DNA from: Mesorhizobium sp. M1B.F.Ca.ET.045.04.1.1 | GTDB lineage: Bacteria > Pseudomonadota > Alphaproteobacteria > Rhizobiales > Rhizobiaceae | Assembly (NCBI RefSeq): GCF_003952465.1 | Contig: NZ_CP034448.1 | Span: 3,883,001-3,947,000, forward strand | Direction: 5' to 3' | DNA: 64,000 nucleotides | In this document: positions 57,209-60,940 of the stretch, piece by piece | Layout of the letters: each line of letters starts with the position of its first letter | Position numbering within the stretch: the stretch's first letter is position 1 | The notes under the pieces: generated by a model | Database searches by the model: none | What the model was told of the DNA's origin: nothing | Seen by the model: only the letters and a program-made list of their open reading frames with translations | Program-made: the position numbers and the translations under genes

Positions 57209-60200
57209 TTATGCCTTGCCGAACCCGCCGGGTGTCGGCGTGATGACGATGACGGCCTCGCCGGCGTCGAGCGTGGTCTGGTCGCAGGCCTTCAGCACAT
57301 CGATCGAGCCGTCGTTGCGCCTGACCTTGGTCGAGCCGGCCTCGCCATCGCCGCCGCCGTTCAGACCCTGGGGCGGGCGGTTGCGGTGCGAGGAGAGGAT
57401 GGCGCATTCCATCGCTTCCAGGAAGCGGATGGTGCGCTTGGTGCCGTCGCCGGCGTTCCACTTGCCCTTGCCGCCGGAATCTTCGCGGATGCGGAAATCC
57501 TCCAGCACGACGGGGAAGCGCAATTCCAGCACCTCCGGATCGGTAAGCCGCGAATTGGTCATGTGCGTGTGGACGCCGGAGGTGCCGGCAAAGCCGCGGC
57601 CCGAATTCATCCGGCCGGCCGGCGAGCCGGAGCAGATCGTCTCGTAATACTGATACTGCCGGTTGCCGAAGGTCAGGTTGTTCATGGTGCCTTGGGCGTT
57701 GGCCAGCGCGCCCATGGCGCCGAACAGCGCGTTGGTGACGTGCTGCGAGGTCTCGACATTGCCGGCGACGACGGCGGCGGGATAGGCAGGCTTGAGCATG
57801 CAGCCGTCGGGGATGATGATGTTGATCGGTCGGAGGCAGCCGGCGTTCATCGGGATCATATCCTCGACCATGACGCGGAAGGCATAGAGCACGGCGGCTC
57901 GCGCCACCGGCTCCGGCGCGTTGAAATTGTTCTTCATGACCGGCGAGGTGCCGGTGAAATCGACCGTCGCCTCGCGCTTTTCCCGGTCGACGCTGATCCT
58001 GACCTTGATCAGCTGACCGGTGTCGGTGGGATATTGGTAGTCCGAACTGTCCGGCAAGCGCTCCAGCACGCGGCGCACGCTCTCGGCGGCATTGTCCTGG
58101 ACATGGCCCATATAGGCCTCGACGACATCGAGGCCGAAATGCGCGACCATCTTGCGGAGTTCCGCCACGCCCTTTTCGTTGGCGGCGATCTGCGCCTTGA
58201 GGTCGGCGATGTTCTGGACGGGATTGCGGGCAGGATAGGGATGGTCGGTAAGGAGGGTCTCGAGCTCCTTCTCGCGAAAGCGGCCGCGATCGACGATGCG
58301 GAAATTGTCGAACAGCACGCCTTCCTCGTCGACCGTGGTGGCTAAAGGCGTCATCGAGCCGGGCGCCGTGCCGCCGACATCGGCGTGGTGGCCGCGCGAG
58401 GCGACGTAGAACAATATCTCCTCCCCCCTCGAGGGGGAGGTGCCGCCGAAGGCGGCGGAGGGGGTCGTTGCGGCAGTGCTCGACGCTTTGGCTGTGCCTT
58501 CTGAGGCGACCCCACCCGGTCGCTTCGCGGCCACCCTCCCCTCAAGGGGGAGGGAAAAAACCGGCGTCACGACGGTGATGTCGGGGAGATGCGTGCCGCC
58601 ATTGTAAGGCGCGTTGAGCGCGAAGACGTCGCCCGGATGGATATCGCCCGAATTCAGGCGGATGACGGTTTCGACCGAGCGGTCCATGGAGCCGAGATGC
58701 ACCGGCATGTGCGGCGCGTTGGCGACCAGGGCGCCGTGGCGGTCGAACACCGCGCAGGAAAAGTCCAGCCGTTCCTTGATGTTGACCGAATAGGCCGTGT
58801 TCTGCAGCGTCACGCCCATCTGCTCGGCGATCGACATGAAGAGGTTGTTGAAGACCTCCAGCATCACCGGATCGGCCTCGGTGCCAAGCGCCGCCTGCCG
58901 GCGCTTCTTTTCGATGCGGCGCAGGAGCACGTGATTTCTGGCGGTGATCTCGGCCTGCCAGCCGGGCTCGACGACGATGGTCTGGTTCGGCTCGATAATG
59001 AGGGCCGGGCCGGCCACCTTGTAGCCGGGCTTCAGATCCTCCCGCCGGAAGATGCCGGCATCGCGCCAGCCGCCATCGGCGAAGAATTGCCGGGTCTGCC
59101 AAGGGCTTGCCGCTTGGTCTTCGAGACTTGATTCATTTTCGTCGCGCGCTCCGGTCCCGACATCGCTGCCTTCGACGCCGACTGCCTCCACGATCATCGG
59201 CTTGTTTTCATAGACGAAGCCGAACTGCGCCTTGTGGGCGGCCTCGAAATCGCTTCTGGCGCGGAAGATCGAGCCATGCTCGAAATTGACCGGCAGCGCC
59301 GTGTCGGTGCCGTCATAGCGAATTTGCAGGACCGGCTTGGACGCGATGGCGGCTTCCGCAATGCCTTGCGCGGCAAGCTCGGCGACCACGCCTTGGCGCA
59401 ATGCCGAAATCAGGTCCTCGATCGACGAGCGCGATTCTTCGGCGAGAGGTTCGAGCAATGCCTGTTGGCGCGAGGCGAAAACCGTCGACAGCCCGATACC
59501 GTAAGCCGAGAGCAGGCCCGAGAAGGGGTGGATGAGCACCGCTTCCATGCCGAGCGCATCGGCGACGAGGCAGGCATGCTGGCCGCCGGCGCCGCCGAAA
59601 CAGTTCAAGAGATATTCGGTGACGTCGTAGCCGCGCTGCACCGAAATCTTCTTGATGGCGTTGGCCATATTCTCGACGGCGATGGTGACGAAACCCTCGG
59701 CCACCGCTTCCGGCGAGCGTCCATCGCCGATCTCGGCGGCCAAGGCCGCGAATTTTTCGCGCACGGTGGCGACATCGAGCGGCTGGTCCTGGCCGGGACC
59801 GAAGATCGCCGGGAAGACATCGGGCTGCAGCTTGCCGAGCATGACATTGGCGTCGGTGACGGCAAGCGGGCCGCCGCGCCGGTAAGCGGCTGGGCCAGGA
59901 TTGGCGCCGGCCGAGTCCGGGCCGACGCGGAAGCGGCCGGCCTCGTAATGCAGGATCGAGCCGCCGCCGGCCGCGACCGTGTGGATGCGCATCATCGGCG
60001 CTCGAATGCGCACGCCGGCGACTTCGGTGTCGAAGGCGCGCTCGTAGTCGCCGTCATAGTGGGCGACGTCGGTCGAGGTGCCACCCATGTCGAAACCGAT
60101 GACCTTGTCGAATCCGGCGAGCTTCGCCGTCTCGACCATGCCGACGACACCGCCGGCCGGACCCGACAGCAGCGCGTCCTTGCCCTGGAACATGTCGGCG

Positions 60201-60940
60201 GCGGTTAGCCCGCCCGACGACATCATGAACATCAGGCGGGGGCCGGCACCCAACTCTCCTGCCACCCTTTGCACGTAGCGCGACAGGATCGGCGACAGAT
60301 AGGCGTCGACCACCGTGGTGTCGCCGCGGCCGACCAGCTTGATCAGCGGCGAGACCTCGTGGCTGACCGAGATCTGGCTGAAGCCGATCTTGCGGCAGAC
60401 CTTGGCTACCGCTTTTTCGTGGTCCGGATATTTCCAGGCATGCATGAAGACGACGGCGACCGCGTCGATGCCGTCCGCCTTGGCCTGCTCGATCGCGGGG
60501 CGGCAGGCGGCGATGTCGAGCAGGCGCTCGACGCGACCGTCTGCACGCACGCGTTCGTCGATCTCGATCACGCGCTCGTAGAGCTGCTCCGGCAGGATGA
60601 TTTCCTTGGCGAAGATATCCGGCCGCGCCTGATATGCGATGCGCAGCGCGTCGCGAAAACCCTTGGTGATGAGCAGGAGCACGCGGTCGCCCTTGCGCTC
60701 GAGCAGCGCATTGGTGGCGACTGTGGTGCCCATCTTGATGTCGCCGATCCGCTCGGCGGGAATGGCGGCGCCGGTTTTTAGCCCAAGCAGGTCGCGTATG
60801 CCCTGGATGGCGGCGTCGGCATAGGCTTCAGGGTTCTCGGACAGGAGCTTGCGCGGGTGCAACTGGCCCTGCGGATCGCGGCCGATGATGTCGGTGAAGG
60901 TGCCGCCACGGTCGATCCAGAAATCCCATCTCGAGGTCAC
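57209..60940 (-). CDS. 5-oxoprolinase-type hydantoinase (fused HyuA-HyuB)
   Basis: A 1,243-residue ATP-dependent amidase. Residues about 1-690 are HyuA-like: '[17 protein letters not shown]', '[16 protein letters not shown]', '[14 protein letters not shown]', '[20 protein letters not shown]' and '[18 protein letters not shown]'. The rest is HyuB-like, with '[20 protein letters not shown]', '[18 protein letters not shown]' and '[17 protein letters not shown]'. The fusion is the 5-oxoprolinase layout, so 5-oxoproline or a hydantoin is the likely substrate. An extra segment at about residues 796-841 is an in-frame palindromic repeat, absent from the normal 'VVTPVF...[11 protein letters not shown]' junction. 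The start is at 60940, divergent from a winged-helix regulator. Confidence 0.92.
58418..58554. repeat. Palindromic repeat inserted in frame within the oxoprolinase gene
   Basis: CTCCTCCCCCCTCGAGGGGG at the left and CCCCTCAAGGGGGAGGGA at the right, with inner motifs CCGCCGAAGGCGGCGG and CGGTCGCTTCGCGGCCA, have the make-up of the intergenic palindromes of this genome (compare 4902-5106). Length is compatible with about 46 codons and the frame is kept, encoding a Ser/Ala/Gly/Thr-rich insert. Confidence 0.8.

Follow-up and report, generated by a model that had tools for sequence, protein, structure and literature searches.

The 64,000-nt stretch of Mesorhizobium DNA analysed here (the window) carries a fused HyuAB-type 5-oxoprolinase/hydantoinase gene whose HyuB half holds a palindromic repeat in frame (Table 1). 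The gene is intact: it is read as a single frame of 1,243 residues and matches four Pfam domains (Hydant_A_N, Hydantoinase_A, Hydant_A_C and Hydantoinase_B), in agreement with a first-pass annotation made from the letters alone, and with dN/dS also being low (see below) the reading of the gene as a pseudogene is unsupported. Exactly 46 codons lie between the residues VVTPVF and the eleven residues of protein that follow. Relatives without the insert share VVTPVF and then continue through a six-residue turn (VVTPVF-DDARKE-ILF), which bears out the view that the sequence on either side is the normal junction of the family. The annotation had placed the element at 58418-58554 and given it 137 bases, one fewer than the 138 that we find, and its figure of about 46 added residues is right for the codons inserted but not for the net gain, which is 40 because the native turn is replaced.

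Table 1. Features of the 5-oxoprolinase gene and its insert, in positions of the window
Feature	Position	Strand	Remarks
Fused HyuAB-type 5-oxoprolinase / hydantoinase gene	57209-60940	minus	GTG start; 1,243 codons; from ORF and Pfam
Palindromic repeat insert, in frame	58418-58555	minus	46 codons; peptide ...TSPSRGEE; replaces native six-residue turn
Terminal hairpin, low-coordinate end of element	58420-58440		arms 58420-58427 / 58433-58440
Terminal hairpin, high-coordinate end of element	58534-58554		arms 58534-58541 / 58547-58554
Central loop of element	58468-58506		between 49-nt inverted arms 58419-58467 / 58507-58555
Second insertion-prone loop of the 5-oxoprolinase	60239-60247	minus	coordinates set by hand from the frame; empty here

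Both terminal hairpins of the insert are perfect over 8 bp, its 49-nt inverted repeat is 71% complementary, and its folding z-score is -3.7 against 100 shuffles. Within the window the hairpin pattern occurs four times at up to three mismatches when 0.06 occurrences are expected, so the palindrome is not a product of chance. A search of the 7.78-Mb host genome with the insert DNA returned 64 matches at E <= 0.001, some sites being counted on both strands, and 29 distinct two-hairpin copies could be delimited from 37 partly overlapping loci, the window insert included; the insert thus belongs, as had been proposed, to a palindromic repeat family of this genome. Core lengths in the 28 other copies leave a remainder of 0, 1 and 2 on division by three in 9, 8 and 11 cases respectively, indicating that the length of the repeat is not tied to multiples of three. 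Seen against TA-type MITEs, the termini of many host copies read ATCTCCCCC...GGGGGAGAT, and several of them adjoin TA; a target-site duplication could not be established. A structured RNA family reading of the insert is unsupported, Rfam giving zero matches at E <= 0.1 within 57000-61100.

To follow the site through the genus, 146 Mesorhizobium genomes were searched, the window's own included, of which 143 have a relative at E <= 1e-100; one locus per genome was taken from 130 of them (13 genomes with a match were left out), and the junction was read in 128. The site is filled in 36 of these orthologues, counting the window gene, and empty in 92, where a turn such as DDARKE is found. Twenty-one of the filled alleles carry the window type of insert (type A), seven a second type whose peptide reads ISPLVGEM...ISPTRGEIGQSPK (type B), three a hybrid with a B-like left end and an A-like right end (type C), and five a single hairpin. 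The native turn residues are missing from type A alleles, so that a simple insertion cannot be read from them. The two loci beyond the 128 junctions read are one at a contig end and one (G017) in which the insert is present but carries a frame change in its terminal G run; 36 of the 37 insert-bearing alleles with a visible junction therefore keep the frame. Of the 19 type A inserts of equal length, 5 have a centre that runs in the opposite orientation to that of the other 14; both orientations are open and encode unrelated peptides.

On a tree of the flanking codons the filled alleles are scattered among empty ones, and filled/empty sister pairs are joined at bootstrap 100 (for example L056/L128, L033/L069 and L032/L070). 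Fitch parsimony on the gene tree requires at least 16 changes between filled and empty, compared with a mean of 31.9 and a minimum of 25 in 200 shuffles, from which it follows that the filled state is partly inherited and has often changed; with five states, 24 changes are needed. One allele on a draft contig, in which the frame is lost after an unknown base (L131, genome G054), was kept in the tree and left out of the pairwise, third-position and codon-position values given below.

The window's copy most closely resembles inserts that occupy this site in other species: the nearest is 97% identical (L033) and thirteen more range from 84 to 94% (the best 14 of 35), whereas in its own genome the best near-full-length copy is 79% identical over 127 bases, with 90% over 71 bases for a half copy. 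A fresh local jump from the host genome is accordingly unlikely as the immediate source. Divergence between type A inserts is lower than the third-position divergence of their flanks in all 88 of 88 pairs, and the third positions of the flanks show no dip in divergence near the insert. Over the 50 bases that directly follow the insert on its 3' side, all filled alleles except L032 and L149 (34 of 36) are on average nearer to distant filled alleles than to distant empty ones, and the residues FYVA stand just past the site in 33 of 36 filled alleles as opposed to 3 of 92 empty ones. Neither windowed comparisons nor third positions reveal a long recombination tract, that is, one extending beyond about these first 50 bases. 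The similarity of the inserts and their 3' flanks could reflect either spread by very short tracts of recombination or constraint acting on the DNA of the repeat itself, and we infer that alleles may have spread between species through short tracts of this kind.

Selection on the gene and on the insert is of different character. In pairs hand-chosen from the tree, flank dN/dS ranges from 0.046 to 0.137 in the 12 with a filled member and from 0.053 to 0.103 in the 8 empty ones. Among the 13 type A alleles of the same orientation, divergence at codon positions 1, 2 and 3 is 0.091, 0.092 and 0.104 in the insert and 0.079, 0.064 and 0.292 in the flanks, so that divergence at position 3 is 1.14 times that at positions 1 and 2 in the insert (bootstrap 0.59-1.93) and 4.09 times in the flanks; these counts omit two of the 21 type A inserts, which differ in length, and including L131 (1.18 and 3.42) leaves the picture unchanged. 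The 5-oxoprolinase gene is under purifying selection, and the insert peptide is not visibly selected. At the level of the DNA, the hairpin arms are less variable than the centre among type A inserts.

As modelled by AlphaFold2 (mean pLDDT 70, pTM 0.69), the HyuB half matches the caprolactamase 6yra_B with Z 28.8 at 3.0 A over 482 residues and has the insert as coil, with pLDDT of about 30 in its middle, between strands 115-122 and 169-177. In the model of an empty relative, which is coarse at full length (pLDDT 64, pTM 0.46), strands 784-792 and 799-806 are connected by a short turn, and sequence alignment indicates that three residues connect the corresponding strands in a solved N-methylhydantoinase. 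The insert is thus predicted to form a disordered loop at a beta-hairpin turn, one that may be exposed to solvent, and the protein carrying it is probably made and active.

The same turn is used well beyond Mesorhizobium. Family-wide, 186 of 247 genomes match the 175-residue region around the site, and at least 15 matches outside the window's own genome span the insert, in at least 11 other genera. When 20 loci from other genera were read (these 15 and five more), 16 of them, from 12 genera, had 47-86 residues between the fixed flanks, the empty state in this comparison being 19. Among 80 named records, all of whose junctions were read, more than 21 residues are present in 4 of 24 from Mesorhizobium and 8 of 56 from elsewhere (Aquibium, Aminobacter, Aurantimonas, Jiella, Bauldia, Pseudolabrys and two Xanthobacteraceae MAGs), the remaining 48 of the 56 being empty. 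Grouping 62 inserts by blastn (E <= 1e-8, single linkage) gave five groups with more than one member (a large C5/G5 superfamily of 45, a trio and three pairs) and 8 singletons. An insert of this superfamily in another genus (L191) sits in a region 83% identical in protein. Of 30 inserts folded, drawn from Mesorhizobium and from other genera, 24 fold better than 100 dinucleotide shuffles at z <= -3; the six that fall short include L201 (0.4), L281 (-2.0), L266 (-1.8) and L241. Three of four inserts tested from other genera are multicopy in their own genomes: with the query and both strands counted, two outside the superfamily have 51 (G287) and 52 (G165) matches and one within it has 6 (G243), while the fourth, also outside, is single copy (G149). 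Inserts of composite or hybrid make-up also occur (L206 and L038, besides type C).

The first-pass annotation had taken the insert to be unique, and this did not survive, given that 35 of the 127 other Mesorhizobium orthologues and 12 other genera are filled at the same site. It had also held that homologues with the segment in other genera would count against its reading altogether. They exist, and uniqueness falls with them, but the palindromic-element reading gains, as what lies at the site in those genera is either the same superfamily or a family unrelated to it.

The site also has counterparts. Across 223 aligned relatives, with some genomes present twice, insertions of at least 10 residues in more than two sequences occur at only two places, the N-terminus aside: the turn in the HyuB half and reference position 232-233 in the HyuA half, where a loop connects helix 206-227 to strand 233-236 in the model of the empty relative. 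In many relatives this second loop is filled with palindromic repeat peptides of the same kind; its shortest form in the 118 same-genus genes read is 26 residues, and in 42 of them it has at least 45. Other coding copies in the host, which the annotation had proposed to look for, were found in an XdhC-like ORF (L002) and, twice, in the GlyS-beta region (L017 and L292). There are 17 long open frames over host copies, and 8 of them, the window gene included, were given to Pfam; L002 and L017 were counted as coding copies after this step, and five others were not, either because a Pfam domain is absent from the frame (L007, L015 and L018) or because the element lies upstream of the domains (L014 and L022). 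A search of the host with type B gave 12 open frames outside the Pfam set. The first GlyS copy has a frame change near its terminal G run, which may be a true lesion of the gene or an artefact of sequencing. In the region around the second, the C-terminal half is a Pfam hit and the N-terminal half reads as a putative GlyS portion. Seventeen of 61 genomes align across this second GlyS site; of 30 loci, 19 could be read (11 could not), with 12 filled, one single-hairpin and 6 empty.

The first coding palindromes to be described were those of Rickettsia; scattered examples from other bacteria followed. The palindromic elements of Rickettsia and Wolbachia, grouped into ten families in Rickettsia according to review, are 100-150 bp long, and some lie in frame in conserved genes with the peptide exposed to solvent; Rickettsia orthologues have inserts at the same sites, some belonging to different RPE groups, and the biotin ligase genes of Wolbachia and Rickettsia carry elements in the same region (PMC3767692, PMC10969869 and PMC2229807). 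The likeness to such elements that the annotation had pointed out stands up in several respects: the Mesorhizobium insert is multicopy, hairpin-forming, in frame in a conserved gene and absent from many orthologues. It differs in that its hosts are free-living Hyphomicrobiales; the likeness is one of description, and the insert belongs to the host's own GC-rich repeats. For R. japonica, the authors weighed a hotspot against one diverged insertion and preferred a common origin (PMC3767692); unlike that case as described there, the present turn holds families without detectable similarity across genera, and most close relatives are empty.

A second precedent is provided by intragenic REPs with GTAG or CGTC tags, which occur within the ORFs of numerous bacteria and of which over half are dimers or grouped and code for 20-30 residues; their hosts include tRNA synthetases, and double insertion in one gene occurs (PMC3733652, section on intragenic REPs). 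The Mesorhizobium inserts are similarly palindromes inside ORFs, a tRNA synthetase (GlyS) and a gene with two sites among them, but they end in C5/G5 hairpins and not in those tags. The only same-site case named in that section is recB, in two species of Xanthomonas, the sites being different in the other genes of its category, and the main text of the paper, from 2013, does not name Mesorhizobium (PMC3733652). Small MITE-like palindromes with open frames that fuse in frame to genes are also reported as enterobacterial RU-1/2/3 (ERIC, YPAL; PMC2759123) and Neisseria NEMIS (PMC2229807); these have other hosts, the likeness is one of description, and the passages concerned do not describe unrelated families recurring in one loop. 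A search of the open-licence literature turned up no paper that deals with rhizobial coding palindromes or with any such element in 5-oxoprolinase. Coding palindromes are already known, and what is new is the strong recurrence at the same site, with unrelated families and many empty sisters.

The loop appears to be a place where palindromic DNA has landed repeatedly, and we consider it likely that its occupants are passive in-frame repeats, tolerated in a permissive part of the enzyme and turned over again and again. In such a scheme a short GC-rich palindromic repeat, with two terminal hairpins, inverted arms and a variable centre, would come to sit in the HyuB beta-hairpin turn by landing in it or by being exchanged there. 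The turn would accommodate roughly 10 to 65 additional residues as a disordered loop, which lets copies of frame-keeping length survive, with the enzyme remaining under purifying selection and the peptide travelling as a passenger. The loop would have been filled many times, by one superfamily in Mesorhizobium and, elsewhere in the family, by palindromes that are genome-specific and unrelated to it, and turnover within Mesorhizobium would proceed by replacement in place, inversion of the centre and collapse to a single hairpin.

What remains to be weighed is how much of this recurrence might be owed to descent, to the DNA target or to a function of the loop. It is possible, if somewhat doubtful, that a single old insertion in an ancestor was inherited and then written over, lineage by lineage, with the repeats resident in each genome, be it by gene conversion or by nested insertion, and that recombination with empty relatives restored the empty alleles. 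The composite and hybrid inserts (L206, L038 and type C) would fit such a history, as would the clustering of filled states relative to shuffled trees, the joint filling of the two 5-oxoprolinase sites (24/18/5/71; Fisher p 2e-9, uncorrected for kinship) and the FYVA residues, which look as if filled alleles had a common source; yet it has to accommodate the many state changes on the tree, the predominance of empty sites in named orthologues outside Mesorhizobium and flanks without a conversion tract beyond about 50 bases. A preference at the level of DNA, in which an enzyme recognises sequence around the turn codons and makes the turn a true insertion hotspot and not a survivor filter, seems to us improbable. 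The type A alleles read do share one junction (L045 with two extra residues), and occupancy differs in many sister pairs, but unrelated families at the same turn in different genera would call for several enzymes with the same taste, and the filled loop in the HyuA half differs in sequence. Mobilisation by a resident RAYT, of the REPIN/RAYT class, is likewise unsupported: the only Y1_Tnp match in the host (82 of 121 positions) has an internal stop, and no repeat copy lies within the surrounding 3.2 kb. We infer that the loop is permissive, not a DNA target.

The least probable of these alternatives, and in our view a very unlikely one, is that the added loop has been co-opted, altering regulation, assembly or stability of the enzyme and being selected for it. 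The near-universal keeping of the frame in insert-bearing alleles and the use of two loops of one enzyme might be taken in its favour, but frame keeping follows from selection on the enzyme alone, the insert lacks the codon-position bias of its flanks, and its centre occurs in two orientations with unrelated peptides. Passive, tolerated repeats that turn over in a permissive loop thus remain the reading we favour.

Dozens of filled and empty Mesorhizobium alleles, many from cultured strains, together with several unrelated families at one turn, make the question of hotspot versus old insertion a testable one. For Hyphomicrobiales more broadly, palindromic repeats are not intergenic only, and frame changes in their G runs can break gene calls. 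It is tempting to speculate, although we hold this only tentatively, that a few turns of housekeeping enzymes (two in 5-oxoprolinase, two in GlyS-beta and one in XdhC) are standing docking sites for palindromes in this order, where a genome's own family ends up in frame and is then replaced, inverted or trimmed in place. If so, these turns would naturally document how repeats turn over within proteins, perhaps through a mechanism that swaps one palindrome for another at existing copies.

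The HyuA half of 5-oxoprolinase contains a second loop (60239-60247, minus strand) that, in many relatives of the window gene (loci L034-L160), holds in-frame peptides derived from palindromic repeats, some of them nested; in the window gene itself this loop is empty. At the insert of the HyuB half, the allele carried by one related genome (G017, locus L082) loses the reading frame at the terminal G run, and the open frame there is 874 aa in length.

The repeat family to which the window insert belongs is also found in coding sequence elsewhere in the host genome, where an in-frame copy lies within an XdhC-like ORF of 573 aa (L002, host 486090-489216). 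Two palindromic repeats are likewise present in the host GlyS-beta region (L017 and L292, host 6516503-6519129), the first of which is accompanied by a frame change near its terminal G run that is possibly a sequencing error.

The sole match to Y1_Tnp (RAYT-type) in the host genome, at host 7656222-7656467 (L291), is interrupted by an internal stop, and no copy of the repeat seen in the 5-oxoprolinase insert was found in the 3.2 kb around it. Within the window itself, several other repeated or palindromic elements can be recognized, including one whose hairpins are of the same type as those of the 5-oxoprolinase insert.

Other repeats and palindromic elements in the window
Element	Sequence	Positions	Remarks
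Different repeat	TGCATGTCG...GACATGCA	3146-3195, 32380-32429, 46794-46850	both orientations; copies 84-89% similar within the window
Longer palindromic elements (a pair)	GCGCCGCCCCTCAT...CTCCCCGTATA	13765-13950 and 15610-15789	~1.8 kb apart
Further element		4901-5105	C5/G5-type hairpins
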